The position numbers and the translations under genes were made by a program. From Rugalucina vietnamica (lineage: Eukaryota > Mollusca > Bivalvia > Lucinida > Lucinidae): a DNA stretch of 64,000 nt. Below, piece by piece: positions 16,622 to 60,244 of this stretch. The stretch's first letter is position 1, and each line of letters opens with the position of its first letter. The notes beneath the pieces were generated by a model. That model did not search any database, had not been told where the DNA came from, and saw only the letters and a program-made list of their open reading frames with translations. The DNA lies in contig OZ024872.1 of the NCBI GenBank assembly GCA_964017185.1, positions 38,570,188 through 38,634,187 on the forward strand. The letters are read 5' to 3'.

Positions 16622-16920
16622 GACTGGGAGTTGTGGCGTGCTCCTGTAATCCAGCTACTTGGAGGTCGGGGTCTGGAACGGCTTGAGGGCGGGGGTTCTG
16701 CTCTCCGGTGTGCTATGTCGATCGGGCGTCCGCACTAAGCTGGGCATCAATATGGGTCTCTCGGGGGAACCCAGGAGGTCCAGGTTGTCTAAGGAGGGAC
16801 GTACCGGCCCAGGGTGGAAACACAGCAGGCAAAAGTTCCCGTGTCGAGCAGTAGTGGGATCGCGCCCGTGAATAGGCATCGGTTGGCAGCCCGTCCAATA
16901 TAGTCGGACTTGATCCTTTT
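16622..16920 (+). ncRNA. Signal recognition particle RNA (7SL RNA)
   Basis: Across about 300 nt the sequence aligns by eye to animal 7SL RNA. The 5' Alu domain has GTGGCGTGCTCCTGTAATCC and AGCTACTTGGAGG. The S domain has GTGTGCTATGTCGATCGGG, CGTCCGCACTAAG, GGCATCAATATGGG, AAGGAGGGACGTACCGGCCC, GGTGGAAACACAGCAGG and CAGTAGTGGGATCGCGCC, then GTGAATAG near the 3' end. The helix 8 loops that bind SRP54 are intact. It ends in a T-rich Pol III terminator (16917-16940). The 7SL RNA is the scaffold of the SRP, which halts and targets ribosomes making secreted proteins. Because no core motif is broken, it could be functional. A retro-copied pseudogene is less likely, as there is no poly-A tail. Open frames on both strands here are artefacts of the RNA gene. 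Confidence 0.93.
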
Positions 16921-18080: not shown

Positions 18081-18365
18081 CATTACGCAAACTTGTCCAT
18101 GCATTATACATCTTCTAGTATTTTTGAGCTTTAAAAAATGAAAATTTGTAGCTGAAAAATTTTGATATTTTTTCTTATTTTTGCTCAAAACATAGATTGT
18201 GGGTACACGTTAGAACCGCCTCGGCGAGGCGGTTCTAACGAGTACCCACAATGTATGTTTTGGATCCAAAATAAGAAAAATAGGTATACCCCTGCATACC
18301 CCAGTTTTACTATGTAAAAGTGGGGTTTAAGGGGGTATTCATTGCACGGACATGTTTTCCTGACG
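18081..18365 (+). mobile_element. MITE family B copy B3
   Basis: It runs from CATTACGCAAACTTGTCCAT to CACGGACATGTTTTCCTGA. Palindrome 18195-18252 is centred on CCGCCTCGGCGAGGCGG and nearly perfect. The flanking arms CTTATTTTTGCTCAAAACAT / ATGTTTTGGATCCAAAATAAG extend the pairing. Confidence 0.85.
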
Positions 18366-18443
18366 ATTCAGTTATGGCAATGGAGAAATATGACATGGGG
18401 CTAAACTTATTTTGACCCGTTTAGTTAGGCAATGCGATATCAC

Positions 18444-18711
18444 ATTACGAAAATTTGCCCATGAAACATACATAAAATATTTTCAGCATTAAAAATTGAA
18501 AAATTCATTGGAAAAAGTTTGATATATTCAATATTTATGTTCAAAACATTGATTGCGGGTAAACCTTAGAACCGCATCGGCAAGGCAGTTCTAACGAGTA
18601 CCCACAATCTATGCTTTGGATCAAAAATAAGAAAAATAAGTATACCCCAGTTTTACTATATAAAAGTGGAGTTCAAGGGGGTATACATTTCATGGACATG
18701 TTTTCCTGATG
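18444..18711 (+). mobile_element. MITE family B copy B4
   Basis: It lies only about 80 bp after copy B3 in the same orientation. Ends CATTACGAAAATTTGCCCAT and CATGGACATGTTTTCCTGATG. The palindrome is mismatched in places (GCATCGGCAAGGCAG), so this copy is older. It ends about 45 bp before the first visible exon of the EF-hand gene. Confidence 0.8.
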
Positions 18712-23479: not shown

Positions 23480-23727
23480 TGACCCTGAAAAGTATATTCT
23501 ACTGGAACACATTTTATATAGAGAAACTGGGGTATACCTATTTTTTTTATCCAAACCATAGATTGTGGGTACTCGTTAGAACCGTCTCGGTGTGGCGGTT
23601 CTAACTTGTACCCACGATCCATGTAATGACTTAAAAGATTGAAAATATCAAATTTTTTCTGATGAATTATCAATTTTTACATGTGAAAAATTCTCTGTAT
23701 ATTACATGGACAAGTTTTCATAACGAC
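23480..23727 (-). mobile_element. MITE family B copy B7
   Basis: The core GATTGTGGGTACTCGTTAG / CTAACTTGTACCCACGATCC is mismatched, and the right end is TTACATGGACAAGTTTTCATAACG. It sits about 80 bp beyond the stop codon of the first ARF-like gene. Confidence 0.75.
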
Positions 23728-23805: not shown

Positions 23806-24339
23806 TTATACAACCCGTTCCAACCAATCAAGGCTATCCCTAAGTCCTGCTCCTTCCACTCCACTTACAGCGAATACCGCCCATTTCCTACCGACAAGCA
23901 ATTTACTTGTTATTAAATCACTGATAATTTCCTCCTTAGTCATAACATCACATAGATCTTGTTTATTAGCAAGAATCGCTATGGGAACCTCTTTCAATTC
24001 ATCGTTCAAAATCGTTTCTTCTAACATTTTCTTAGCCTCGTCGTATCTATCCGAGTCACTCGAGTCAATCACGAAAACCACCGCCTCTGTTGATTCATAA
24101 TAATGACTGCGCGATGTCAACTTGCTATCCATAATTCCAAGATCCCATGTGACGAAATTAACACTTCTGTGTTTGATAGATTCCATGTTAAAGCCAAGGG
24201 TAGGAATAGTTGTGATAAGCTGTCCTAGTTTCAGCTGGTACAGAATGGTCGTTTTGCCCACCGAGTCGAGTCCAATCAACAGAATTTTCACCTCGCGTTT
24301 CTTCCCAGGTCTACAAGACGCACTTGACAATCCACCCAT
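23806..24339 (-). CDS. ARF-like small GTPase, catalytic Gln replaced (gene 1 of cluster)
   Basis: Intronless 177-residue protein of normal ARF length. MGGLSS at the N-terminus keeps Gly2 for N-myristoylation. The P-loop GLDSVGKT is at 23-30 and the switch I Thr in TTIPTLGFN at 43-51. G3 reads WDLGIMD at 65-71, where ARF proteins have WDVGGQD. NKQD is at 125-128 and the G5 region is AVSGV. Gly70 and the catalytic Gln71 of ARF1 numbering are thus Ile and Met, so intrinsic and GAP-stimulated hydrolysis should be weak and the protein may stay GTP-bound (inference). ARFs recruit coats and lipid-modifying enzymes to membranes. The start has an AAGATGG context. It belongs to a same-strand tandem set reaching 28.9 kb and shares an upstream TTAAGCTGTTTAAA (24601-24614) with the other copies. 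Confidence 0.88.
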
Positions 24340-24999
24340 CTTCTCGCTTGGGTAGTAAGATGGAGAGTGTACATATACCTAAAACCTTTGTCTGACTTTG
24401 CTACTGTGACGGTATATTGAATCGACACGGTGCCTGTAACGCTAAGGCAGTGATATCATTTCAAACACGGTACTAACTGTTGTCATATATTAAAGCGATT
24501 TCTCTATAATATACGAGAATGTAGGCCTATCTCAAGTTTTCCTACAAATATAAGCAAGACTTAGTGATTAAACTCTTTTTTCTCTGTGCATAGAATGTTA
24601 TTAAGCTGTTTAAATAGCTATTTAACTTGTTCGCGTCAACTGTTCACTTCTTTAACTTTATATTGTGTGGATCAATATCTCACTGCCTAACCACTACATT
24701 GACCATTACGCTGCAATCACTTGGCTATTCTATATTATATCTTTCGCTTCAATACATTGCGTGGTCCATTTTAGTCTTTTCTTCAGACGACAAACTATTT
24801 CCTTTTGGAACTTTGCTTAACCAGTATCAGTATGAGCGCATCTCTCCATCATTCGTAGTTGTCTCATTTTTGTATCCAGACTGTACAAGGGTTCATTACC
24901 CAAATCCATTCACATGCTTTTCATGTCATGGTCACTGCTTCCATTTGTGTATACCTATACATTTTGTTACATGTTTGTGGTATAACTTCCTCTAGCCAG
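24340..24999. other. 5' flank of GTPase gene 1 and spacer
   Basis: It contains the TTAAGCTGTTTAAA motif shared by the cluster (24601-24614). Plus-strand open frames at 24627-24995 and 24859-25233 run into the next pseudogene and MITE and are not supported as genes. Confidence 0.4.
24601..24614 (-). promoter_or_regulatory. Conserved upstream motif of GTPase copies
   Basis: TTAAGCTGTTTAAA, exact also at 25884-25897 and 27009-27022. A one-mismatch copy lies at 27321-27334 and a two-mismatch copy at 29181-29194. Each lies about 120-265 bp upstream of a GTPase start codon. It could be a promoter element or simply shared duplicated flank. Confidence 0.45.
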
Positions 25000-25742
25000 T
25001 CAAGTCCATCACTCAGTCCGTCTTCCTGCTTATCACTCACTGCAAATACCACCCATTTCCTACAGACAAAAATTTATTTGAGCCACTGCATGAGAAAAGC
25101 AACAATTTGCATAGGCGAAAACAAAACCGCAGATCAGCTGTGCAGTAACTGCACAGCTGATCAGCGCCTTTGTTTTCGCAGCATGTATAGTGCAATTTCT
25201 GTTCCTTCTAAATCCGAAATTTCAAGCTTCTAACCATCTTCTGTGACTGTACAGGCCGGTTTGTGTCGGACTTGGTCGGAAACCCAAATTGTTGGTTTTC
25301 TAACTCACAGGCTCATTTGTTATTAAATCCTTACATATTTACTCTCTAGTCATTACATTACTTAGATCTTGTGTATTAGCCAATATCAACACGGGTACAT
25401 CTCTCAATTCATCATTTGCAGTTGTTTCTTCTAACATTTCCACAACTTCTAGGTAAAACTCATGACCGTGCGTGTCAACTACAAAAACTACTGCTTCTGT
25501 TGATGGATAATAAGTACTTAACAATGGCCGCATTTTTTCACTACCCCCAACATCCCATGCGATGAAATTGACGTTCCCATGTTCGATGGACTCCACGTTG
25601 AACCAAGTAGTAGGGCTAGTTGTTACAACCTCCCCATGTTTTAGTTGGTACATAATTGTAGTTTTACCAGACGAGTCCAGTCCAACGAACATAATTTTCG
25701 CCTTGCGTTTCTCCCGTGTTTACACGACACTTGACAACCCAT
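25000..25742 (-). pseudogene. ARF-like GTPase pseudogene split by MITE A7 (copy 2)
   Basis: The start ATGGGTTGTCAAGTGTCGTG is followed by a frameshift within the first 20 codons. The body then reads GLDSSGKT, WDVGGSEK (Gln71 position is Ser) and ANTQD, where the NKxD Lys is changed to Thr. A stop follows MTRE at about 25339. After ITN the gene is interrupted by a family A MITE (25079-25315). It resumes at 25000-25078 with a shifted frame, giving KWVVFAVSDK and [12 protein letters not shown]. There are at least four lesions, so it is dead. It is about the same length as gene 1 once the insert is removed. Confidence 0.88.
25079..25315 (+). mobile_element. MITE family A copy A7, inserted in GTPase pseudogene
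   Basis: It runs from TGAGCCACTGCATGAGAAAA to AACTCACAGGCTCA. The palindrome at 25115-25179 is centred on CAGCTGTGCAGTAACTGCACAGCTG, where most copies have CAGCTTCGCAG/CTGCGAAGCTG. The empty site can be read from gene 1 (CAATTTACTTGTTATTAAATC at 23889). Comparison gives a 4-bp ATTT duplication if the element starts at GAGCC, or 2 bp if it starts at TGAGCC. Confidence 0.85.
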
Positions 25743-25883
25743 CAGAGGCTGTAAGGGATGATGTCGTATCTGAAGTCTAATTCTTTCACATGACCAATTA
25801 TTTACTTCGATCTAAAGTGCCATAGCGATTTTTCTCAGTGGTCTTTGTACATATTATAGAGTATATTATTTGTACAATAATTG

Positions 25884-25897
25884 TTAAGCTGTTTAAA
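25884..25897 (-). promoter_or_regulatory. Conserved upstream motif of GTPase copy 2
   Basis: Exact TTAAGCTGTTTAAA about 145 bp upstream of the pseudogene start codon. Confidence 0.4.
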
Positions 25898-26377
25898 ACA
25901 CGTCACCGTGAGTTATGTAAACAATATTACTTTAACAGACATGCAATTCATCTTTTCATGGAATAACACGCTATTGTCGCAGAGAACCCTGTCTCTTGTA
26001 AGGTGTCGCAAGTTTGCGCAAAACATTTTACTGTGGGTCAGGCGGTGTCGATACATAAGCAGTCATAAGGTAAATCTAAAATGCCGTATTTTAGAAAGTA
26101 ATGATTATGCCACCGATCAATACGCTACATAAACATTACCTAGGTCAAACGGATTGAAATCAGTCATTTGCGTTTAGAGTAGCCAGTATCGTTATGGAAG
26201 CCGGCTACACCTTTAAATTATCTGGCTTTCGTTGCCATCTTATACGCGGGGTCACTTTTGAAGATCCTTGCCTCCACTCCACTTTTATAACGTTCCATTA
26301 CGCATTACGACCCACACACTTTCTTCTCAAGAATGCACATGCTTCTAAAGTATCACTATTTATATTTCTATTTCAGT

Positions 26378-26887
26378 TACTTGTTAGAACTTCCTTTAGC
26401 CAGTCAAAACCATCACTCAGTCCGTATCTTGTCCCCTGATTATAACTAGTTTCATTATTTTACCCAGAAGACTCTTGTTTCTCAATAAATCCCTATGGAG
26501 TTCGTCTCTTATAATCAAACCACATAGATCTTGTTCATGACAAAAATCAATATGGGTGCCCCTTTCAGTTCATCATTCGACACTGTCTCCTCTTACAGAT
26601 TTATAGCTTCTCTTTATTTTGTCGATCGTGCAGGTCAATCACAAACACTACCGCTTCTGTTGATGTGCAATGCTGTCTTGTTAAACAATGGTAGCATTAC
26701 TATCACCAACATCCCAAGCGATGCAACTAGCATTCCCGTGTTCGATAGGTCCTACGTTAAAGCCAATGGTAGGGCTAGTTTTGAAAACTCTCCCATTAGT
26801 TAGTTGATAAAGAATAGTCGAGTCCAAGGAACAAAATTTTCACCTCACGTTTGCTCTGTGGTCTACATGATTCACTTGACTACCCAT
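26378..26887 (-). pseudogene. ARF-like GTPase pseudogene (copy 3, P-loop deleted)
   Basis: Remnants in order on the minus strand: an ATGGGTAGTCAAGTG start, LDS joined directly to TILYQL (the GKT P-loop is deleted), TSPTIGFNVGPIEHGN, IAWDVGDS (Gln71 lost), then frame-broken 3' sequence ending GLSDGFDWLKEVL near 26390. Several deletions and stops. It is the most decayed full-length copy. Confidence 0.82.
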
Positions 26888-27026
26888 CCATTTTGTCGTT
26901 ATGGCTAGACGGTGTCGTGTCGTTATCTTAGTCTAATTCTTTAACCTGGCCATATTTTTACTTCAATCTCACTTTTCATAGCTAATTCGCTCAGCTGTTA
27001 TACACATTTTAAGCTGTTTAAACGAC

Positions 27027-27330
27027 AATTAGCATTCCCGTGTTCGATAGATCCTACGTTAAAGCCAATGGTAGGGCTAGTTTTGAAAACTCCCCCATTA
27101 GTTAGTTGATAAAGAATAGTCGAGACCAAGGAACAAAATTTTCACCTCACGTTTGCTCTGTGGTCTACATGATTCACTTGACTACCCATCCATTTTGTCG
27201 TTAGGGCTAGACGGTGTCGTGTCGTTATCTTAGTCTAATTCTTTAACCTGGCCATATTTTTACTTCAATCTCACTTTTCATAGCAAATTCTCTCAGCTGT
27301 TATACACATTTTAAGCTGTTTTAAGCTGTT
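27027..27330 (-). pseudogene. Tandem duplicate of the 5' part of GTPase pseudogene 3
   Basis: Bases 27027-27320 repeat 26725-27018 at an offset of 302 bp with only a few differences. They include the truncated coding start (ATG at 27189), the same P-loop deletion and the upstream flank with the TTAAGCTGTTTAAA-type motif. The duplication is therefore later than the deletion and recent. Confidence 0.85.
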
Positions 27331-27334
27331 CAAA

Positions 27335-27958
27335 TCATAATGATTTGAGTCACTCATTGACTTAATTTACCTTAAACATATCTTATTTTAGTTTTCTAGT
27401 ATTTTCAGATGGCGGTTCAATGCCGAAGAAGTCAATATTATTATACGTCATTTTTAATATACATGTATATATATGCATTATCATTAATATTATATTGACT
27501 GATATTAGCTAATGTCAAAAGGTATTTGTAAACTAACTTGAAAAAAGTAGTCCAAAGGGCAACATCATGATCCATGAGCTGAAGCAGATAGAGACATCTG
27601 GGCACGAAAACTACAAGGAATAGATAGTATACACAAAAACGAAGACGGTTATGCTGGGCAGACGAAGGGCCAATCTGAACAAACACCGGGCAAGAAATAA
27701 GAATGAAATAGAACAATGTCTGAAAAATATATTCAATACTATAACAACATACAAACAAATAAGTATAAAATTGCAAAATTATTTTACTTTGATGCTCCCT
27801 CTATTTCATTATAGACTGGCTTTGGCAGGGAACATACATATCTGCATGCATCAAATATCAAACACAGTAAATATGATTAAATTCATGTATCGATAAACAT
27901 ATATGGGAGGTCAATTATGATCAGATGCAGCACAAAATGCGGAGTTTAATCCCTTACA
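27335..27958. other. Spacer between GTPase copies, nothing recognised
   Basis: AT-rich. Open frames on both strands (27441-27776, 27651-27896) overlap each other and show no domain. Confidence 0.35.
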
Positions 27959-28215
27959 GAAACATACCCATGCAATATACAGAAATAATTATTAAAGTTT
28001 ATAAAAATGAAAAATTGCAGTAGATGTTTTAAACTCAAAACATAGACTGTGGTTACACGTTAGAACCGCCGTGGCGAGGCGGTTCTAACGAGTACCCAAA
28101 ATCTATGTTTGGGGCAAAAATAAGACAAACAGGAATACCCTCGAAAACCTCAGTTATTCTATACAAAAATGGTGTTCAAGGGGATATACTTTTCATGGAC
28201 ATTTTTTTTCTGATG
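27959..28215 (+). mobile_element. MITE family B copy B8
   Basis: The core GACTGTGGTTACACGTTAG / CTAACGAGTACCCAAAATC surrounds CCGCCGTGGCGAGGCGG, and the right end is CATGGACATTTTTTTTCTGATG. It lies about 75 bp beyond the stop of GTPase gene 4, the same relative place as B7 after gene 1. Confidence 0.75.
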
Positions 28216-28290
28216 CACCTGTAGACCAGTCCCCGCTTTTCATCGAGTATGTGCCATGGTGCTGCCAACAAATATAGAACAAATATTATT

Positions 28291-28941
28291 TTAACGAAAT
28301 AATGTTTTCAGTGCTGAAATTGCTTGACTGTAATACGATAGTTTCGAAACATCTTTAACACTAGCTTCTGTTCCATTCGTCTCTTCTTTATCTGCGGGAC
28401 CTTTATTTGTTAGAACTGTCTCAAGCCAATCAAGTCCGTCACTCAGCCCTTCTCCTAACGTACCACTCACAGCAAATACGTCCCATTTCCTACCATCAAG
28501 CCATTTATTTGTCATCATATCACTAAGAATTTCCTCTCTAGTCATAACACCACTAAGATCTTGTTTATTTGCCAGTATCAGTATGGGAATATTTTTCAAC
28601 AGCTCGTCCGAAATAGTCTCTTGTAGCATTTCTACAGCTTCTCTGTACCTCTCCCTATCATGGGAATCAATAACGAAAATTAGCGCCTCTGTGCCGGCAT
28701 AATAATGTCTGAGCAACGTCCGCATTTTGTCCCGAACACCCACATCCCATGCCGAGAAATTTATATTTCCGTGTTCGATAGTTTCCACGTTGAATCCAAT
28801 GGTAGGGATAGTCGTAACAATCTCGCCGAGTTTTAGCTGGTAAAGGATTGTCGTTTTGCCCGCAGCGTCAAGTCCAATGAACAGAATTCTCACTTCCCGC
28901 TTTTTCCAAAGTTTACATGAAACACTCGACAAACCTCCCAT
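28291..28941 (-). CDS. ARF-like small GTPase with C-terminal extension (gene 4 of cluster)
   Basis: Intronless, 216 residues from the MGGLSSVS start. An in-frame ATG 17 codons upstream is possible, but it would bury the myristoylation Gly. P-loop GLDAAGKT is at 23-30, switch I Thr in [13 protein letters not shown] at 125-128 and AVSGT at G5. G3 reads WDVGVRDK, so Gly70 and Gln71 of ARF1 are Val and Arg. After DWLETVL a 38-residue polar tail ([13 protein letters not shown] and on) is absent from ARF1 and from gene 1. It is the best preserved copy and the likely functional reference of the cluster. Nucleotide binding should be intact; hydrolysis is likely impaired (inference). Confidence 0.88.
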
Positions 28942-30694: not shown

Positions 30695-32464
30695 ATGGGG
30701 TCATGTTCGTCAAAATCGAATGAAATCTCGCCTACAACGCCAAAATTCCAAGGAAATATTTCACAAAATGATCACCAAAACGCTGTAGTGGATGATCATG
30801 AAGAAGGTATACCAACAACTGATCCTGGAAAGGCTTTATCGAGTGACCACGCAAAAGTTACATTAGACGACAATTTAAAGGCTATTCCAAACGACCATGG
30901 AAAAGATTCATCAAATGATCATGACAAAATTTCTCCAAAGGACCATAAAAAGGCTACACCAAAAGATCGTAGTAAAGGAGCTACAAAGCCTCAAGGAAAG
31001 ACTAAAGATAATTTAAAACGCAAAACAAAGGAGGAAAATAACCACCTGAAAAAAGATAATAATGACGCTAAGACCGAGAAAGTTACGGTCAAAAACGACG
31101 ATCATCTAATGAAAGTCACCATAAAGACAAATCTTGTAGATAATGACAACCTCGATGCAGTTTACGATATTCCTCCTCCACAGCCACCAAAACTTCGTAA
31201 AAAGGAGATTCTTAAATACATATCAAATATACCTAAGATAGATGAACATGCAAAGAATGCATCACCAAAGTTGAAAGACAATCTTCCCGATCTTGTCAAT
31301 TATCTCTGCATACCATCAAACGATCCAGTATCCATCATTCGAGCAATCTTTGTCTGGGTGGCCTACAACATAGACTACGATGCAGATGGATATTTCGGAA
31401 GAGCTGAGAAGTCACAGTGTGACTATGTCTCTGTTCTAAAATCTGGAAAATCGGTTTGCGAAGGTTACGCAAATGTGGTTCAAGCATTGTGCAAAGAGGC
31501 TGGAATCGTGGCTAAGAAACTTAGTGGGTTTGCAAAAGGTTTTGCTCATTCAATCGATACACGCTATACGCAAGATAGTAAGACAAACCATGCATGGAAT
31601 GCCGTGTTCATCAAGGGCAACTGGTTTTTGCTGGATAGCACATGGGGAGCAGGGAATGTCAGCAGAGAAACAAAGCAATTTGAGAGGAAATTCAACGAAT
31701 TCTATTTCCTAACAGACCCAGGACAATTTATCAATTCCCACTATCCTGTTTGCAAAGAAAATATTGAAGAAAGTCAAAATTGGCAGCTTCTGAAAAAACC
31801 GTATTCACTGGAACAATTCAACGATTCAGTGAAAATTCAGCCGGCTGCTTTCGAACTTGGTCTATTACCACAATCACATAAGGAGTCGGTTATCGAGTTC
31901 GCAGACGAATTAGAGCTGGAATTTAAAGAAAAACTACCGAAAACAAACAAAGTTACAACGGGTCTATACTTAAAAGACGGCAACAAGCTGCACAAAGAAG
32001 AATATTGTTGTTTCGCCTTTTGGTCAAAGGAGAGCCTTAACATAAAAGTGAAGCCTCCAAAGACTGGTACATACGAGCTTAAGATTTATGGTAAAGTTTT
32101 AGAAGAAGACAACAGTGACTCATCTCCACATTTGTTCAGCTATACGCTGGTTTGCCACGTTCCAAACGACGTGATGACGTCGAGAAGATTTCCCTATCCG
32201 GAAATATATCCACGTGCATTTCTAGATGTATGTGAAATAATCGAGCCGCTTGGGAAACAACTGTCGCCTCACAGCAATGTGACAATGAAATTCAGGTCGC
32301 CACATTTGAAACGAATAAAGATACAAAAGGCTTTGTTAGAAAAACAAGGGGATACATTTGCAGGCAATGTTTTGACGCCAGAGAGTGGTGATGTAATAAC
32401 AGTGTTTGGGTCAAGAGAAGATAAAGGTTCATTGAAAGGAATATACAAGTTTTGTGTTGGCTGA
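30695..32464 (+). CDS. Kyphoscoliosis peptidase-like transglutaminase-core protein
   Basis: A single uninterrupted 589-residue frame. The N-terminus MGSCSSKS carries Gly2 and Cys4, a dual N-myristoyl/palmitoyl signal. Residues 20-95 are a low-complexity run of about 10-residue units built on DHxKxxPxD (NDHGKDSSNDHDK, PKDHKKATPKD), then a Lys/Asn-rich linker to about 150. A proline patch (IPPPQPP) precedes the transglutaminase-like core at about 170-330. Cys255 (GKSVCEGYA), His299 (TNHAWNA) and Asp314 (FLLDSTWG) are the expected Cys-His-Asp triad. The C-terminal 270 residues match the beta-rich region that follows this core in KY/hillarin proteins. KY proteins act at the cytoskeleton; membrane anchoring here is inferred. 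The lack of introns in the visible frame is notable. MITE A8 starts 8 bases after the stop. Confidence 0.87.
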   Translation: MGSCSSKSNEISPTTPKFQGNISQNDHQNAVVDDHEEGIPTTDPGKALSSDHAKVTLDDNLKAIPNDHGKDSSNDHDKISPKDHKKATPKDRSKGATKPQGKTKDNLKRKTKEENNHLKKDNNDAKTEKVTVKNDDHLMKVTIKTNLVDNDNLDAVYDIPPPQPPKLRKKEILKYISNIPKIDEHAKNASPKLKDNLPDLVNYLCIPSNDPVSIIRAIFVWVAYNIDYDADGYFGRAEKSQCDYVSVLKSGKSVCEGYANVVQALCKEAGIVAKKLSGFAKGFAHSIDTRYTQDSKTNHAWNAVFIKGNWFLLDSTWGAGNVSRETKQFERKFNEFYFLTDPGQFINSHYPVCKENIEESQNWQLLKKPYSLEQFNDSVKIQPAAFELGLLPQSHKESVIEFADELELEFKEKLPKTNKVTTGLYLKDGNKLHKEEYCCFAFWSKESLNIKVKPPKTGTYELKIYGKVLEEDNSDSSPHLFSYTLVCHVPNDVMTSRRFPYPEIYPRAFLDVCEIIEPLGKQLSPHSNVTMKFRSPHLKRIKIQKALLEKQGDTFAGNVLTPESGDVITVFGSREDKGSLKGIYKFCVG

Positions 32465-32472
32465 ATCAAAAA

Positions 32473-32706
32473 TGAGTCTGTGCATGAGAAAACCAACAAT
32501 TTGGGGTTCCGACCAGGTCTGACACAAACCAGGCTGTACAGTTACAGAAGCAGGCTAGAAGCTTGAAATTTTGGATTTAAGAAGAGAGATTGAACTATTC
32601 GTGTAGCGAAAGCAAAGGCGCTGATCAGCTTCGCAGTTACTGCGAAGCTGATCTGCGTCTTTGTTTTCGCCTATGCAGATTGTTGGTTTTCTCATGCATT
32701 GGCTCA
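32473..32706 (-). mobile_element. MITE family A copy A8, directly after the KY-like stop
   Basis: Ends TGAGTCTGTGCATGAGAAAA and TTTTCTCATGCATTGGCTCA. The palindrome is centred on CTTCGCAGTTACTGCGAAG with outer arms AAAGGCGCTGATC / GATCTGCGTCTTT. It must be part of the 3' UTR unless the transcript ends within 8 bases of the stop. Confidence 0.85.
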
Positions 32707-33223
32707 AATTCAAAGCGATCTCCCACTCCATAATGTCAAGAATAACTGTCTAGACTGTATTATATAGAGAATAATCTGCAAATTGTTATACACAGAATCA
32801 CAAACAACAGTACTGTGAAGTAATTAAAATGTGTATTATTAACCACATAGGTCCAAACTACTACATTGCACCACTTTGGACTTAATTGTTGGATAATAAT
32901 TTAAAACGATTTAATTACTAAAGTCTTTGTAAATACTATCTAACGCAGAATACCAAAATGAATAGATAAATGCTTATGCATTTTGTTAATTGACTACATT
33001 ACTGTTAATACGTTACTTCGCAACTGTTAGGTGTTTTATTGTGACACTCCATATACCTTCCTTTTGGAAATTTGTGATTTTATTAGGTGGGCGATATATA
33101 TTTCAGCATGGGTTTCTCATTCTTTTTTATTATGCGGACGCTAGGAATCAACAATGTGCTTAGATGTATATAATCCCATTTTGTAACATTTCGTGTCAAT
33201 GTCACCTTTGGTTCCGTGTTCCG
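32707..33223. other. Gene-free AT-rich stretch
   Basis: Nothing recognised. No clear AATAAA for the KY-like gene. Confidence 0.3.
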
Positions 33224-37022: not shown

Positions 37023-38297
37023 TTGCATATTTGTGCTGTTTGCACCTTATGCGCGTTTTTTTTTTATTTTAGTTAGGTTTGGGTATCTGAGTGGCCACAT
37101 ATTGGGAAATAGCTGCTCACTCGGCTTACGATATGTTTTCTTAGTATAAGTACCTAATTGTCAATTTAGTTTTCTCCACCTCGGTTTACGAGTGAGATTT
37201 TCTTTCTGATTGCGCCATTTCCTGATCATTGCCTACTTGTACCGTTTCACAGATTGAAGTCATGAAGTTGTAAATCATGTTGATGGTAAAAAGGTACAAG
37301 TAGGTAATGATCAGGAAAAGGCGCAATCAGAAACAAATTCCCACTGCAAAATCTTAGGTGGGAAAAGCTAAAATGACGTTTAGGTACTTATACTTAGAAA
37401 ACAAATCGTAGGCAGAGTGAGCAACTGTTTCCCAATAGGCCACTCAGATTAATACCTAAAGTTAACTAAAACTATAAAAATCTGTTTCTAAAATTTACCC
37501 AGCATACCACACGGATGACCACGGAATCAAACAAGGAAGTAACTTGACATTTGCAGGTATGCTTGCTGCTGACTCCGCGGCACTCTATAGCTAAGAGTTG
37601 GGTCATATAATAATTTGTATCATGATGTTTGAATTACTGTCTGAACACCATCTTTCATAAACTGCATTTTTCAAAATCTCACTTTTGTGAAACACTACAA
37701 GAAAAATAGTGTGTTCTACAAGCATCACAGAATTATTGTTTTGAAGAGTCATTAATTTGTGTCATTCCATAGAGGTTTACCAGCCAGCTTTTTGTAGTTC
37801 TGATAATTTTAGGGTGGCGCAAACTTTATCCAGGGACTGGTGTGAATGGTGGCGAAGTGAGTGGAAACTTCACGTATAAATGGGCAGGAGACCGGTGCAC
37901 TGCTGTTAACGAAGCTGTAGCAAGCGGTGATTACGTCACGGGGCGGTTACCTAGCAAAGTATCACCGAACAACAGGACGCACGTGTTAGTGAGAGAAGCT
38001 AACTTTCACCCGGATGGAGGTCAAGTGTTCTTTCCGAAAGATGGCGATGCCTTTGTAGCACTTTTGGCACTTCCTACAGACGATATAAAACTCGAAGATT
38101 TCCGAGCGTTTTACTTCGACGGAAGCTTCGGTGTGCAAATACACGCTGACATCTGGCACCAGCCAGTCTATCCGGTGAATGATGAAGCGACGTTTCTGGG
38201 GAAACAGGGTGCAATTTATGCGTGCGTTGTTGTGGACACCGTAGATGAATTTGGCAGATACCTATCAGTGCCTCTGACACTTCCAGGCCCTGAATGA
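35117..38297 (+). CDS. Ureidoglycolate lyase (AllA)-fold protein, copy 1
   Basis: Two exons, 35117-35279 and 37813-38297, joined in phase 1 with GT/AG borders, encode 215 residues. The AllA fold is shown by HPDGGQVFFP (120-129), DFRAFYFDG (150-158), GVQIHADIWHQP (161-172) and GAIYACVVVD. These match the HPxGxQxFxP, LRAF and WHxP motifs of ureidoglycolate lyase, which splits ureidoglycolate to glyoxylate and urea in purine breakdown. Against the roughly 160-residue bacterial enzyme it has an extra N-terminal segment of about 55 residues encoded by exon 1 (YADALDPKYGEPFPVP). Exact substrate is unproven. A splice acceptor 13 bp before the ATG indicates a 5' UTR intron. AATAAA lies at 38416-38421. 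It pairs with the tandem copy 2.3 kb downstream. The 2.5 kb intron holds family C repeats and a TG microsatellite. Confidence 0.85.
36867..37460. mobile_element. Family C inverted-repeat element in AllA-1 intron
   Basis: Arms at about 37074-37233 and 37293-37460 are inverted copies: GAGTGGCCAC, GCTGCTCACTCGGCTTACGA, GCGCCATTTCCTGATCATTG and their complements. The leading part (36867-37070: GCAGAAGCTGAGGGCGAGGT, GATCGTTCCAAGGCGATACT, a TG run at 36985-37014, TTTGCACCTTATGCGCG) recurs at 50115-50280 and, in part, at 9455-9680. Arm fragments also lie at 6190-6300, 6955-6990 and 39225-39400. Confidence 0.75.
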
Positions 38298-38923: not shown

Positions 38924-39203
38924 CATTACGAAAACATGCCCATATGATATACAGTAATTTTTTCAGGTCAAAAATCGATAATTTTCAGAGGAAAAATTTT
39001 GATATTTTTCTTATTTTTGCTCAAAACATAGATTGTGGGTACATGTTAGAACCGCCTCGCAGAGGCGGTTCTAACTAGTACCCACAATCTATGTTTTGGA
39101 GCAAAAATAAGAAAAATAGGTGAACCCCTGCAAACCCCAGTTTTTTTCTATATAAAAGTGGGGTTTAAGGGGGGATTTATTGCACGGACATGTTTTCCTG
39201 ATG
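38924..39203 (+). mobile_element. MITE family B copy B9 (near-consensus)
   Basis: Ends CATTACGAAAACATGCCCAT and CACGGACATGTTTTCCTGATG. The inverted arms extend over 39003-39119, about 55 nt each side of a GCA centre, with only a few mismatches. This is the longest nearly perfect palindrome in the window. Confidence 0.88.
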
Positions 39204-40532: not shown

Positions 40533-41565
40533 ATGAGTTGTTACACAAGCTATGCTGATGCCCTGGACCCGAAATACGGGGAACCGTTTCCTGTACCAAT
40601 TGTGAGGGCAACCGATGAAACGCTGAAAGGATACGGGAAAACAGTGAGAGACTTTGAAAATGAAAAGGTGGAGATTACTCCCTGGCCTGTCCAAGGTTTG
40701 TTTCTGTAGAATTCTTAATGAAAACAAACAATACCAAATGCCATGGAATCTGGAGTTGAGTGAGTACAGTTTTATTTAAGGGACATCAGGAGTGATTTCA
40801 ATTTTTTAAATCAATTTTAATGAAATCCCTCTTAGCAAATAGAATATCTTCAGATGAGATATTTCCCATTCTGTGGCTATACTGTTTAGATATGCCTACC
40901 AAAAGGACACAGTGCAAATGTGAATTAAAAGCAAAGTTTGAACGGTGATTTACCCAATGCATTATTAGGTAGTCTGCATCCTGAAACAGACCTTGTTGAG
41001 CGAATTGACATATATTCTTGCCAAACTTATGCAACTTTTACTTACACTTTATAGTAGATATACTTTAATGGTTTTCTATATTTAAGGGTGGCGCCCACTG
41101 TGTCCCGGAACGGGCATCAATGGAGGAACAGTCAGCGGTAACTTCACATACAAATGGAAAGGAGACACGTGCTTTTCTGCCAATGCAGCTGTCAGCGTTG
41201 CTAACTTCATAGGGCGGCTACCTAGCAACGTATCACCTAGCAACAGGACGCACGTGCTAGTGAGAGAAGCAAACTATCACCCGGATGGAGGTCAAATCTT
41301 CTATCCGAAAGATGGCGGCGCTTTTGTAGCCCTCCTGGCTCTTCCTACGGATGATGTCAAACTCGAAGATTTTCGGGCGTTTTACTTCGATGGAACGTAC
41401 GGCTTAAACATTCATGCCAATGTTTGGCACCAGCCTATGTACCCGATAAATGATGAAATGACGTTCATCGGGAAGCAGGGTGCGATATATGCATGTGTTG
41501 ATATGGACACTGTAAAAGAATTTGGTAGATATCTTTTAGTGCCTCTTACGCCTCCAGACAATTAG
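40533..41565 (+). CDS. Ureidoglycolate lyase (AllA)-fold protein, copy 2
   Basis: Two exons, 40533-40695 and 41087-41565, in phase 1, encode 213 residues. Exon 1 has exactly the same length (163 nt) as in copy 1, and the proteins differ at a minority of positions. Motifs kept are HPDGGQIFYP (119-128), DFRAFYFDG, WHQP (168-171) and GAIYACVDMD. TTATTCCAG lies just before the ATG, as in copy 1, so the 5' UTR intron is also shared. AATAAA is at 41633-41638 within the same TAGAAATAAAGAAA context as copy 1. The intron is only 391 bp, against 2.5 kb in copy 1, because copy 1 gained family C repeats. Tandem duplication is the simplest origin. Confidence 0.85.
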
Positions 41566-42814: not shown

Positions 42815-43038
42815 TGGCCATTCGCATGGGAAGACCAACAATCTGCATAGGCGAAAACAAAGGTGCAGATCAGCTTCGCAGTAACTGCGAAGCTGATCAG
42901 CGCCTTTGTTTTCGCTACGCGGATAGTACAATAAATCCAAAAATTTCCAGCCTCTAACTATCTTCTGTGACTGTACAGCCCGGTTAGTGTCGGACCTGTT
43001 CAGAACCCCAAATTGTTGGTTTTCTCACGCACAGGCAT
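42815..43038 (+). mobile_element. MITE family A copy A9
   Basis: Palindrome centre CTTCGCAGTAACTGCGAAG with GCGAAAACAAAGGTGCAG / CAGCGCCTTTGTTTTCGC arms. The ends are slightly diverged (GCATGGGAAGACCAACAATC and AATTGTTGGTTTTCTCACGC). It lies about 340 bp upstream of the PhyH-1 coding exon. Confidence 0.8.
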
Positions 43039-43387
43039 AAATAATCCTAACCAACAACTAGCTACGTAACAGTCGCATACACGGATCATTTTACTGCACA
43101 CTAAGGCGGAGGAATTGGACAACAATGGTTTGAGAAGATAGCAGGACCGTGTTCTTCATGTGTACTGTTATATTTTATGCGATGTCTAGTATCGTCCTTT
43201 TCTTTCGCGCCTGTTGTCTGAATTCGGGATCCTGTAAATTCATGTGCGTTTTATGGTTACTTTTATTAGCTGTCATAATTTTGCATTCAGCAACACAATA
43301 ACAAACCAGCACTTTATCAGCACAGTTTACATATGCGAGTTTGTATCATGAAGTTATATAATTTACTTGTTTTTATTTCAGTATAAA

Positions 43388-44356
43388 ATGTTGACTGACG
43401 AGAATTTCGACGACCTTGAAAAGAAGGGCTATACCGTGCTCCCTAATGTGGCGACACCCGCGGAATGTGACGAGGCAATACGTCAGTATCGGGAATGGCT
43501 GGACCAGTTTACCAGAACAGGGTCATGGCCGCACACATTCAACGGGATAATAAACTGGTATAACACCGGTCACATGGCCCCCACGTGGGAGATGAGGCTC
43601 AGAGCGAAGAAGGTGTTCGCGCAGCTTTGGAAGACGGACAAATTATTGACAAGTTTTGATGCAATTTCCATAGGGCGGCCACCCGAAGATGGAAAAGAAA
43701 TGTTCGAAATGCCTGGTAAACATTGGCTTCACACCGATCAGACTGCGTCGCGCCTTGGACTTCATGCTTATCAGGGAGCTTTATATCTTGAGGAACAATG
43801 TAAGGACGACTGGACTTTTCACGTGCTTGAGAAATCACATAAACACATGGACATGTTCTATCATAGGTATCCAAAGGCTGCTGAAAAAGCAGAACCTGTT
43901 GGACATTATACATTAAAGAAAGACGAAATTGATTTTTATATACGGTCTGGTGCCCATAGAATTGTACGAGTACCAGTCCCGAAAGGTGGTATGGCGTTAT
44001 GGGACTCTAGACTGATACATGCAAACGCACGACCGGTTCTTGGCCGTAAGCATCCCGGTCGATGGCGATTCACAAACTTTATCTCCATGACCCCAGCAAT
44101 ATGGGCGACGGACGAGGACATCCAACTCCATAAAGAGGCTTACGAAAACGTCATGATGACATCACACTGGTCTTCCACGGAATTGCGACCATATATCCCA
44201 AAGGCACGACAGGACGTCAATTATCCGACTGAACTACCAGAAATAGCCAAAACAGATGAAGCGAAACAATTGTCAGGTGTTATTCCATATGACTTCAAAG
44301 ATGGCAAGCCAAACGGTGATGGATATATTCCTAAATGGAAAACAATGGTTGCCTAG
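43388..44356 (+). CDS. PhyH-type Fe(II)/2-oxoglutarate dioxygenase, copy 1
   Basis: 322 residues from MLTDENFDDLEKKGYTVLPN; the upstream in-frame ATG at 43367 lies within the intron, because TTTTTATTTCAG ends at 43381 just before TATAAAATG. Members of this family use Fe(II), O2 and 2-oxoglutarate. The double-stranded beta-helix ligands are His115 and Asp117 (WLHTDQ) and the distal His211 in WDSRLIHANARP, with Arg residues following to hold 2-oxoglutarate. GALYLEEQ and the MTPAIWAT segment match PhyH-family dioxygenases. The substrate is unknown, and phytanoyl-CoA itself is not implied. The coding part is a single exon, with an intron only in the 5' UTR. Copy 2 follows 2.3 kb downstream on the same strand. 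Confidence 0.87.
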   Translation: MLTDENFDDLEKKGYTVLPNVATPAECDEAIRQYREWLDQFTRTGSWPHTFNGIINWYNTGHMAPTWEMRLRAKKVFAQLWKTDKLLTSFDAISIGRPPEDGKEMFEMPGKHWLHTDQTASRLGLHAYQGALYLEEQCKDDWTFHVLEKSHKHMDMFYHRYPKAAEKAEPVGHYTLKKDEIDFYIRSGAHRIVRVPVPKGGMALWDSRLIHANARPVLGRKHPGRWRFTNFISMTPAIWATDEDIQLHKEAYENVMMTSHWSSTELRPYIPKARQDVNYPTELPEIAKTDEAKQLSGVIPYDFKDGKPNGDGYIPKWKTMVA

Positions 44357-46310: not shown

Positions 46311-46624
46311 ATTTATAACATATGTATGTTATTCACTTAACGCCAAGTCCGAAAGTAATGTGTAGCCAGCGCACATGCGCCGTGCACGTTTACGACAATG
46401 TCAATTATAGTCCTGTTCTTGACTCAGAAGGAATGCAGTTTAAAATCTAGTGCAGAATTTATGCGCAATGCATGCGCAATGTCATTGCAATATCGTGCAC
46501 TTTAAGATAATGAGGATCGACACCGGCGACAAATTGCTTAGCTCAGGAGTCGTGCCCATATAAAACTGGATTGTTGTTGAATATAATCTTTATCAACTTT
46601 CAACAATCAGGTGCTATTTTCAGT

Positions 46625-47629
46625 ATGATTACCGACCAGAACCGCGAAGACCTGAAAGTGAAGGGCTACACTGTGGTCCCTAACGTAGTCTCCCCAGAGG
46701 ACTGTAATGACGCTGTACGACAGTACAACGAGTGGCTATCCCAGTTCAAGGAAGGAACGTGGCCGAACAGTTTCAACGGTATCATAAAGGGGTATAATTC
46801 AGGCCACATGAAACCGACGTGGGAAATGCGTTTGAAGACGAAACCGGTGTTTGCTCAGATTTGGGGCACGGAGAAGCTGCTGACGAGTTTTGATTCGCTT
46901 GCGATTGCTCGACCCCCGGAGGATGGAAAGGAGGAGTTTCAAGAGCCCGGGAAATTTTGGCTGCATACGGACCAGAAAGAGTCGCGTTACGGCCTGCACG
47001 CCTACCAGGGGGCTCTTTATCTTGAAGAGCAATGCGAGGATGACTGGACGTTTCAGGTCATGGAAGGATCACACGTTCTACTAGACGATTTCTTCAAGAA
47101 GCATCCAGACGCATCGATGAAGGCTGAACCAGTATGCCACTATTCTTTGCTACCAGAAGAACTAGAATTTTACAAAGATTGCAAAATCGTGAGAGTGCCT
47201 GTTCCAAAAGGCGGCATGGCTCTTTGGGATTCCCGTCTTATTCATGCCAACGCAAGACCTTTGAAGGGCAGGAAGCATCCGGGCAAATATCGATACACTC
47301 TCTTCATATCGATGACGCCAGCGATCTGGGCCACGGAAGAGGATTTGAAGAAGAAGCGGGAAGCGTATGAAAAGGCGTTCATGACAACACATTGGTCTTC
47401 CACAGGGGTCGATCCTTATGACGCTTGTGTTACTGCAACTTACCCGTTTGTCGCGGAGACGAGCGACGGAGACGAACAAAATATCACGTTTCCACGAGAA
47501 GTTCCGGAACCTGCTCGTTCGGAAGAGGCAATGAGACTGTCAGGTTTAATACCGTATGACTTCAATGATGGGAAACCTAATGGTGACCATTATATACCGG
47601 AATTCAGGAAATGTTCATGGCAGGCATAA
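46625..47629 (+). CDS. PhyH-type Fe(II)/2-oxoglutarate dioxygenase, copy 2
   Basis: 334 residues from MITDQNREDLKVKGYTVVPN. The start is chosen because GCTATTTTCAG ends at 46623, one base before the ATG; the longer frame would begin in the intron. Ligands are His114, Asp116 (WLHTDQ) and His207 (LIHANARP). The protein is closely similar to copy 1 over most of its length. It has a roughly 14-residue insertion near the C-terminus (around VAETSDGDEQN) and shares the final PYDFNDGKPNGDHYIPEF block. As in copy 1 the coding part is one exon behind a 5' UTR intron. The higher GC and cleaner codon use than the surroundings fit an active gene. Confidence 0.87.
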   Translation: MITDQNREDLKVKGYTVVPNVVSPEDCNDAVRQYNEWLSQFKEGTWPNSFNGIIKGYNSGHMKPTWEMRLKTKPVFAQIWGTEKLLTSFDSLAIARPPEDGKEEFQEPGKFWLHTDQKESRYGLHAYQGALYLEEQCEDDWTFQVMEGSHVLLDDFFKKHPDASMKAEPVCHYSLLPEELEFYKDCKIVRVPVPKGGMALWDSRLIHANARPLKGRKHPGKYRYTLFISMTPAIWATEEDLKKKREAYEKAFMTTHWSSTGVDPYDACVTATYPFVAETSDGDEQNITFPREVPEPARSEEAMRLSGLIPYDFNDGKPNGDHYIPEFRKCSWQA

Positions 47630-52700: not shown

Positions 52701-55700
52701 ATCAAAGGAAGTCTTCATTTTTAAAGAGAAATCTTCATAAAATGGGTAAATGATAATGAAATCTATTGCTAAAAATGGTGATGTTGTTGATAATGATAAT
52801 GGTGATGGTGATAAAGATCTAGTTCATTCTGTAAACCCATTTCTTCTAAAATATCAATCGCATCTTCGAAAGTATCTATGGTAACACTGTAAGCATACAA
52901 GACAATCTCAAAGACTCCCTATACTCTTACATTTGTATATTTAAATGACTTGTCAATCTCAGTTGCTTTGACTTTCTTTCCAGTCCTGGTGTTTTGCTAA
53001 ATATTATGCATTCTGTAATATTTGATCCCGAAGCATTACTAATCCATTCTCAGCAGTAATGTACAATCTGTAGCATATGCAAAATCTAGCGCAAGTGCTA
53101 CTGACAAAGTCACTTGAGAATTATCAATGACATAATAACCGTATAGATGGAATAGATACAGCTATTGAAGTTAGCATCGTTACTAATAGCTTTCTGTTCT
53201 TTTTTTACACGTGGGAATATGTAATGTACAAATAATCTGATTTTTTTGTAATAATGAGGTATTGAGCATGCATCTTGATTGCATTTTAGAAAAGAAAATG
53301 AACAAAATGTGTTTGTATACATCAGATTACGCTTTTGAAATATCAAGGTAGTCGAACTTCGCACTCTTATCTAAGCTATGAGAGAAATAAATGAAAACGT
53401 TGTCACGAATTGCTTTGCTAATCCCTATTTGCTGATTTAAAGCTTTATACGAGATGGTTGTTTTGAAGAAAAATCACTAGGATATAAGACAGAAAGGTAG
53501 CATTTACGAAAACATGCCCATAGAATTTTTCAGCAATTCTTCAGCTGTAAAAAGTGAAACAAAAAGTGAAAAACTATCAGAATAAAATTTGATGTTTTCT
53601 TAATTTTGCTCAAAACATTGATTGTGGGTACACGTTAGAACTGCCTCGCGATAAAAGCGGGGTATTAGGGGGTATACATCAGGAAAACATGTCCGTGCAA
53701 TGAATATCCCCTTAAACCCCACTTTTATATAGGAAAACTGGGGTATGCAAGGGTATGCCTATTTTTCTTATTTTTGCTCAAAACATAGATCGTGGGTACA
53801 CGTTAGAACCGCCTCTACATAGATCGTGGGTACACGTTAGAACCGCCTCTCCGAGGCGGTTCTAACGTGTACCCACGATCTATGTTTTGAGCAAAAATAA
53901 GAAAAATATTGAAAAAATTCTACCGAAAATTTTCATTTTTTACAATTTGAAAAAAATCTCTGTATATTGCAAGGACATGTTTTCCTAATGTATTATACGG
54001 ATATGGTGATGAATACTTACGAAACAAATGCCATAAAACTGCCCAGAATGATTGCGTTGTATATCGCCCAGGTTATATGACGACTTTCGTTGAAATGGGC
54101 TGGGGCTTTCCTGACGGTGAAACACAGATACACTCCATATAGCAGCAACACTATCTCCACTGTGGAAAGAAATATAGCAAGGTCAATGAACATACGAAGA
54201 GAAAGCATTTTAAATAATTGAAAAAATGCATTTGTGATTGCTGACAGGGCCCTTTAAGACATTGAATATAACAAGTGCTGATCTTAAAATATATTAATGT
54301 GCAAAATTATTGATTTCATACCATCAAAAAGTCTTGTTCACTATAATATTTTGTTTGGTAATGGGTCTACGTCCCATCCACAAATTTCAGACATCATTAA
54401 CTTGAAAGCAGCAATTGTTTTCTGTGTATTAACCAGTACGATGCGGTATGGTCCACCCTCTTTCTCTTTAATATGTTCCCTGCTCTCAGAAGATCCCATT
54501 TTTATTTTTATTTTTTATTAAAGTGTCTTGCTCAAGGACTTTGCGCGACGGTAGGTATCGCACCCAGGACCTCTCGTCAGCCACTGCGTCATGTACTACC
54601 ACACTACCACATCTCCTTTACACTCAAATGGGTGAATGTGAGCAGCAGGAAAACATTTCCATGAAACGTATACCCCTTAAACCCCACTCAGTAAAACTGG
54701 GGTAGGCATTTTCTTTCTCATTTTCAATCAAAAACATAGATTGAGATTGAACACCAACAATCAACGTTTTTAGCAAAAAATCAAAACAATACTTTTCATT
54801 TTTTTTTATTGTTTTTTATTTTTATTTTATTTATTCATTAATTTATTTATTCATTTATTTTTGGACAGTTGTAAAAACTATTATATTGCATGGGTCCGTT
54901 ATTGTAATATTAGTACATTACTTACAACCCAGTGCAGCATACTCCCAAGGACCAAAGTCACAGGTATAAAACTTCAATCCATCATCGTTTTTATGAACAT
55001 TCATTCCTGGAGGCGTAATGGCTGTCCATGCTGCTAGAAGAACCACGGCTAAAGAGGTTATCCCGCCTATTCTGCGTAACAGGGCGTGATCGGGTAATTT
55101 AATTCGTCTTTTCATACCAACAGAAAATATAACTGATATCCTGCAAACGACAATGTAAATATAATAATTATAAGACAATTATCTGAAAAATTGTTTAGGT
55201 CTTTCCACTTCCATTTCTACCTGTTAATAACAAATTCCTATTATTCATGAAGACTGTCTATGCAATACTGTTTGCATGATTTGCTGTATAGGCTACACAA
55301 GTAAACCTCAGAACAAATCATCCCGCCTGAATTCCACCATCAAAATACTCAAAAGAAGACATTACAACATTATTCAACCAAGAATAAGGTTTCTTTTTCT
55401 TGGATTTTTCTCTTATTTCTTTGTTTTGTGTTTTATCGTCACCACTTTTCTGTCATTTCGGGACGGAGTATTCTTTCATACACTGATAATGAAGAATTAT
55501 AACATCAGACGATTTAACAAAACTCACCTCCATGTTTTGATAATAAGTGACCCATACATTAGTATGAAACCTAGGTGCATCGGCCACAACCGCAATACAC
55601 ATGTGCTGTATGATGTTTCTGGATACAAGAAGAAGAACTGCAAGAAAATAGATGTAATTGATTATTGTTTAAAACACATATACTTTATAATTATATCTCA

Positions 55701-59815: not shown

Positions 59816-60008
59816 AAAATCTTATTTTCATGTGACAATAATAGACACAAGGTTAACATAGGTAAAAGCTTACGTTGAATTTTTTTTTTTTTTTTTTTTC
59901 ATGGAAACACTTTCTTACACAAAGTATATATACTACATACTGGTACACAATATAGAAATATTATTTTTATAAACCGATGATTTTAATTGTTATCTGAAGC
60001 TACTGATA

Positions 60009-60244
60009 TGAGCCGTGTCATGAGAAAACCAAAACTGTGCATATACAAAAACAAAGGCGCAGATCAGCTTTGCAGTTACTGCAAAGCTGATCAATCCCTA
60101 TGTTTTCGCTTAACAGATAGTACAATTCCTCTACTTTCTAAATCCGAAATTTCCAGTCTCTAGCCTGCTTCTGTGACTGTACAGCTCGGTTTGTGTCGAA
60201 TCTGTTCTGAAACCACATTGTTGGTTTTCTGATGATGTGGCTCG
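60009..60244 (+). mobile_element. MITE family A copy A12
   Basis: TGAGCCGTGTCATGAGAAAA to TTTCTGATGATGTGGCTC. The centre reads CAGCTTTGCAGTTACTGCAAAGCTG: the usual TTCG/CGAA is TTTG/CAAA on both arms. Confidence 0.8.

Follow-up and report, generated by a model that had tools for sequence, protein, structure and literature searches.

We analysed a 64,000-nucleotide stretch of contig OZ024872.1 of the lucinid bivalve Rugalucina vietnamica (positions 38,570,188 to 38,634,187 of the forward strand; hereafter "the window") and observed an array of five ARF-type GTPase pieces, all on the minus strand, within window positions 23806-28941. Two of these are open genes (g1 and g4) and three are broken (psi2, psi3 and psi3'). 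The glutamine at ARF1 position 71 (Gln71) is absent from all four pieces that reach switch II; in g1 and g4 the adjacent glycine (Gly70) is gone as well. From their sequences, we propose with moderate confidence that g1 and g4 are lineage-specific ARF pseudoGTPases that may act as altered, non-cycling ARF relatives.

The gene g1 (23806-24339, minus strand) is open and intronless, encodes 177 amino acids with WDLGIMD at switch II, and ends at the end of the GTPase domain. The gene g4 (28291-28941, minus strand), also open and intronless, encodes 216 amino acids with WDVGVRD at switch II and carries a 39-residue C-terminal tail past the domain. The codons at ARF1 positions 70-71 were ATT ATG (Ile, Met) in g1 (24130-24135, minus strand), GTT CGG (Val, Arg) in g4 (28732-28737, minus strand), GGT AGT in psi2 and GAT AGT in psi3, the last two with Ser at position 71. 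An original prediction, made by a model from the sequence alone, had stated that every readable copy lacks the catalytic glutamine. We confirmed this for four of four pieces; psi3' stops short of the motif and does not cover position 71. The prediction had overlooked Gly70, which gives way to a branched residue in the open genes (Ile in g1, Val in g4), is also lost in psi3, and is kept in psi2. Position 70 of ARF1 is the DxxG glycine, the counterpart of Ras Gly60, through which switch II normally senses the gamma phosphate.

The remaining motifs of the open genes are mostly retained. Both g1 and g4 have the P-loop GLDxxGKTT, switch I PTxGFN and NKQD, start with MGG so that Gly2, the N-myristoylation position, is present, and have Cys9 in common. 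The last nucleotide-binding motif, CAT, is changed to SGT in g4 and SGV in g1, and Trp78 is replaced by Leu in g4 and by Arg in g1. The claim that the copies keep Gly2 and switch I thus held for the open genes and failed for broken ones: psi3 and psi3' start M-D-G-stop, and switch I is altered in psi2 (TTSPTTWFN). Conservation of NKQD had been claimed for the two open copies, where we found it; psi2 reads NTQD.

Both open genes belong to the ARF family by profile match. The Pfam Arf profile (PF00025) covered the whole domain with 171 bits for g1 and 193 bits for g4 (cut-off 22.3), and Pfam matches were to GTPase-type domains only. In NCBIfam, the generic small_GTP domain was the sole hit to exceed the cut-off. 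Among solved structures, ARF1 proteins were the top relatives of both genes (among the best 60 of 454 and of 430 matches), with E values for the top ARF1 match of 2e-56 for g4 and 5e-44 for g1. An in-frame stop lies upstream of the MGG start by 42 nt in g1 and 66 nt in g4. Downstream of g1, in another frame, we observed a short stretch resembling part of the g4 tail (VKDISKL; weak match, E 1.6). No AATAAA was present within 700 nt downstream of g1 or g4; ATTAAA occurs at +2 (g1) and +341 (g4). We found no relatives of g4 in viral contigs or in contigs of prokaryote genomes.

The broken pieces lie between the two open genes. Psi2 (24981-25742, minus strand; WDVGGSE) is disrupted close to its start by frame changes and an in-frame stop, carries another in-frame stop at 25339-25341, and is split by an inserted dispersed repeat at 25074-25311, which we read as SINE-like (short interspersed nuclear element). 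This element is ~235 bp long and has nine further window copies aligned over at least 200 nt (74.5-85.5% identity, both orientations), for example at 32478-32709, 42824-43035 and 60006-60230. Psi3 (26379-26891, minus strand; WDVGDS) is heavily broken, with several stops and its P-loop deleted. Its first part is present twice (26724-27022 and 27026-27324, 97% identity over 299 nt) through a tandem duplication (26724-27324, minus strand, two copies, 302-nt spacing) that gave psi3' (27028-27193, minus strand), a truncated partial duplicate of that first part only. The tandem cluster was as predicted, with the count of four copies raised to five. The similarity of psi2 and psi3 extends upstream beyond their starts. 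Adjacency, common strand and kinship make tandem DNA duplication of the copies likely.

A palindromic dispersed element with arms GTTAGAACCG and CGGTTCTAAC occurs at 28020-28130, 23541-23636, 18083-18665, 38926-39128, 53593-53998 and elsewhere. It sits 3' of both g1 and g4, yet many other copies lie across the window, and we ruled it out as part of the duplication unit.

To place the array among the ARF relatives of the same species, we used its own genome (1.09 Gb, 47 contigs), in which the search gave 82 Arf matches; the survey covered part of these, with 14 of the matching stretches lying outside it. Labels of these genes such as ARL4, ARL6, ARL13 and TRIM23 are our reading of best matches and motifs. 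The residue table had 17 rows: the three window copies (g1, g4 and psi2), a tandem pair on contig C1 (C1a and C1b), and 12 other ARF/ARL rows (ARF1, ARF4, ARF6, ARL1, ARL3, ARL4, ARL6, TRIM23, three ARF-like clusters, and the locus L026 on contig C14). Gln71 was kept in 11 of the 12 other rows, including ARF1, ARF4, ARF6 and the TRIM23-like row; L026, with Lys71 and Ala70, was the sole exception. The C1 pair (~6432669-6433853 and 6435071-6435871; one predicted intron each, after DSNDRER) reads WDVGGRDKIRP, with Arg71 and Gly70 kept. C1a was the best non-window row by domain score against g4 (205 bits, where own ARF4 scored 187 and own ARF1 scored 181) and against g1 (166 bits, compared to 150 for own ARF4); for psi2 it was tied (133 vs 132 bits).

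Further ARF-type loci were observed in the same survey. L026 (C14:40282000-40290000) is a multi-exon ARF-like gene with WDIGAKDKMRPLFRHYY (Ala70, Lys71), and one of its introns falls after PTIG as in ARF1, in addition to others. Position 71 is Gln in the TRIM23-like GTPase domain L025 (C5:28971000-28979000). L010, L011, L012 and L013, at C4:37.46-37.49 Mb and C14:17.67-17.68 Mb, are further ARF-like clusters in tandem, in which switch exons are repeated; the switch II exons seen in them keep Gln71, except one C14 exon reading WDVGGHNAARHVLYRHY. Outside the residue table, Gln71 exons were present in L010, L012, L013, L018 and L022, and L023 and L028 had no alignment at the motif.

We next consider phylogeny. 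Across the trees, the three window rows formed one clade with 99-100% support. The main tree had 14 rows, with the long or partial ARL3, ARL4 and ARL6 rows dropped. The window rows and the C1 pair formed a clade with support 98/99 when L026 was left out, and a tree constrained to hold them together without L026 was not rejected (approximately unbiased test, p-AU 0.42). All six non-Gln rows (window, C1 pair and L026) formed a clade at 93/98, and at 88/96 with positions 70-71 masked. These data make the C1 pair likely kin of the window array and L026 possible kin.

The codons at position 71 bear on when the glutamine was lost. By hand count, an AGR Arg ancestor reaches CGG, ATG and AGT with one change each, and a Gln (CAR) ancestor needs one, two and three changes, respectively. 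Because the C1 pair carries Arg71 and fewer codon changes are needed from an Arg ancestor, a single replacement of Gln71 by a basic residue probably preceded the formation of the array. This agrees with the earlier claim that the loss predates the duplications: Arg71 is found in C1a, the best outside relative, and in C1b, and the Arg, Met and Ser states of the array are cheaper to derive from Arg. Own ARF1 has introns and g1 and g4 have none; copies without introns suggest an intronless founder.

We then assessed selection on the open genes. The pairwise ratio of nonsynonymous to synonymous substitution rates (dN/dS) between g1 and g4 was 0.27 (bootstrap 0.16-0.41) at a synonymous divergence (dS) of 0.86, and a one-ratio codon model on g1, g4 and psi2 gave a dN/dS (omega) of 0.28, with a value of 1 rejected (p = 3e-13). 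Stop-making changes account for 0.047 and 0.044 of single changes in the two open genes. Under free drift (estimated from dS/2 per branch and the stop share) ~11-12 new stops would be expected per gene; we observed zero in g1 and g4. These data support purifying selection on g1 and g4 taken together, and the original prediction of two selected copies is upheld for the pair jointly. In a three-row star, branch omega was 0.16 for g4 (p = 1e-5) and 0.44 for g1 (p = 0.07). With the C1 pair added, values were 0.22 for g1 (p = 0.03) and 0.65 for g4 (p = 0.9), with synonymous sites near saturation. We dropped the idea that selection is relaxed on one particular open gene, as the two codon analyses were opposed.

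Taken together, we suggest the following course. An ARF-type gene already carrying a basic residue in place of Gln71 (Arg in g4 and the C1 pair) probably produced a founder without introns. Tandem multiplication of this founder followed, and of the resulting copies some were broken and g1 and g4 remained open. Both products would retain guanine nucleotide binding through the P-loop, the switch I Thr and NKQD, and would attach to membranes via a myristoylated Gly2, possibly aided by palmitoylation of Cys9. With Gln71 absent, normal turn-off by ARF GTPase-activating proteins (GAPs) would not be possible, and with Gly70 absent, neither would the normal gamma-phosphate-driven change of switch II. 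GAP-stimulated hydrolysis and normal switching are thus probably lost in both. As ARF look-alikes on membranes, g1 and g4 might bind or sequester ARF guanine nucleotide exchange factors, GAPs or effectors, a mode that can be likened to that of Ras-superfamily pseudoGTPases of class II or III. Only tentatively do we extend this to a wider scheme, which we regard as doubtful in its full form: one Gln71 loss to a basic residue, followed by diversification on contigs C1, C4 and perhaps C14 with an added loss of the DxxG glycine, would have given a branch of membrane-bound, non-cycling antagonists or scaffolds beside ARF1 that bind ARF regulators or effectors.

ARF1-type proteins rank with the most conserved switches of eukaryotes. 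Any branch near ARF1 that is under purifying selection without Gln71 and Gly70 would be a natural test of ARF function without the GTPase cycle. The genome offers a series for biochemistry: Arg71/Gly70 (C1), Lys71/Ala70 (C14), Arg71/Val70 (g4) and Met71/Ile70 (g1).

Several observations weigh against this reading. The ~360 nt upstream of each open gene matched only themselves in blastn against the window, which gives no support to DNA-segment duplication for these two genes. The two codon analyses conflict in their branch-wise dN/dS for g1 and g4. Psi2 has an omega of 0.31 although it is broken, which reflects either late breakage or a value carried over from its earlier history. Under a 14-column mask of switch II, support for the window rows with the C1 pair was 80/79 and support for the six non-Gln rows fell to 33/17; when the long rows were retained, C1 and window, five rows in all, formed one clade in 36% of bootstraps. 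The lead of C1 in domain identity to g4 is modest (56% to C1a, against 55% for both ARF4 and ARF1 of this genome). When g4 was searched exon by exon through the genome, the first exon of C1 was again the best non-window match (E 2e-37, 68% over residues 9-99), a rank that it owes to its length. Position 71 has also changed outside the clade, to Gly in the ARL13-like L021 and to His in the first C14 exon of L013, neither of which is in the residue table. Finally, g1 does not have the C-terminal tail of g4, and the g4 tail has no significant likeness to the tails of the C1 pair (p = 0.28 and 0.67). A tail common to g4 and the C1 genes, alike by eye, was discarded as evidence on these values.

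The original prediction had proposed constitutively GTP-bound or GAP-insensitive forms. On the first view, loss of Gln71 would lock g1 and g4 with GTP, and they would recruit ARF effectors permanently. The absence of Gln71 from all four pieces that reach position 71, the retained P-loop, switch I and NKQD, and purifying selection on the open pair are all consistent with such active ARFs. We consider them unlikely, and the claim is not supported as stated, in that both open genes have lost the DxxG glycine as well; this loss makes a switch-defective pseudoGTPase at least as likely as a constitutive GTP form. The nearby Trp78 is also changed in both. A review describes ARF hydrolysis as required for function beyond turn-off (PMC12554972), and another source reports unchanged nucleotide binding in a Gln-to-Leu mutant of ARL14 (PMC12722892). 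The immune role raised at the same time finds nothing in its favour in the present analysis.

Two further explanations concern the fate of the array and the role of the basic residue. An intronless ARF-like gene may simply have multiplied into a decaying array without present function, with g1 and g4 merely not yet broken. Three of the five pieces are broken, g1 is tail-less and shows the strongest changes in switch II, AATAAA is missing downstream of both genes, and each codon analysis leaves one open branch not significantly below 1 (g1 in the star, g4 with the C1 pair). The low g1-g4 ratio, with an upper bound of 0.41 at a dS of 0.86, and zero stops where ~11-12 are expected argue against drift, and we hold decay to be similarly unlikely. 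Alternatively, the basic residue at position 71 could serve as a built-in arginine finger that makes the C1 proteins, perhaps also g4, self-sufficient, GAP-independent GTPases. Arg or Lys is found there in C1a, C1b, L026 and g4, human TRIM23 also has Lys, and a basic residue is probably ancestral. We find this improbable: g1 has Met and psi2 and psi3 have Ser, the TRIM23-like gene of this genome has Gln, and the loss of Gly70 in g4 is unlike a preserved catalytic device.

Other features of the window include a full-length metazoan signal recognition particle RNA match at 16623-16919 (plus strand; Rfam RF00017, 269 bits, model positions 1-299). A 589-amino-acid open frame at 30695-32464 (plus strand) has a transglutaminase-like core and a KY-type immunoglobulin-like domain, and begins MGSCSS, a possible myristoylation site. 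Two long single frames in tandem (43352-44356 and 46514-47629, plus strand) are phytanoyl-CoA dioxygenase-like, and two related frames (37773-38294 and 41086-41562) match ureidoglycolate lyase.

We compared g1 and g4 with known members of the ARF family. They belong with class I ARFs (ARF1/ARF3) by sequence, with Gly2, P-loop, switch I and NKQD in common, and g4 is 53% identical to both human and own ARF1. They differ in that Gln71 and Gly70 are lost and Trp78 is changed (WDVGGQ has become WDLGIM in g1 and WDVGVR in g4), in having no introns, in the 39-residue tail of g4, and in an N-terminus that is by eye less hydrophobic than that of ARF1. Human TRIM23 has Lys at position 71 in place of Gln, which prompted us to consider TRIM23 kinship; we rejected it. 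The TRIM23-like gene of this genome keeps Gln and groups apart from the window rows in the tree; moreover, the frames of g1 and g4 begin at MGG, without the RING, B-box and coiled-coil that precede the GTPase domain of TRIM23. The latter domain (also ARD1) is described in a 2021 eukaryote-wide ARF survey as an ARF1-derived metazoan offshoot (PMC8358228).

The same survey describes Arl20 by three specific intron positions (PMC8358228); g1 and g4 are intronless and the C1 pair has one predicted intron each. L026, which shares the ARF1 intron after PTIG and has further introns, is a possible Arl20 member. The main text of the survey makes no mention of glutamine or Gln. Among the matches listed for open-licence PubMed Central articles, no title reported an animal ARF1-like branch without Gln71, nor one of comparable closeness to ARF1 that lacks Gly70 as well as Gln71.

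Within the ARF family, several human ARLs are already known to have lost the glutamine of switch II. ARL10, ARL13A/B, ARL15 and ARL16 lack it and are discussed as atypical or pseudoGTPases (PMC12722892). They share the glutamine loss with g1 and g4 and sit on different branches among the ARLs; the score of g4 against ARF1 is far higher than against any ARL compared, a set that did not include these four. The RND/RhoH class II pseudoGTPases offer a proposed likeness in that nucleotide is bound and not hydrolysed, as outlined in the same source (PMC12722892), and as members of the Rho family they serve as an analogy only. According to the review cited above, ARF hydrolysis is undetectable without GAP, and blocking it blocks the regulated pathway (PMC12554972). 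Because ARF hydrolysis depends on GAP in this way and Gln-less ARLs are treated as atypical or pseudoGTPases, a non-cycling pseudoGTPase appears to be the best reading of g1 and g4.

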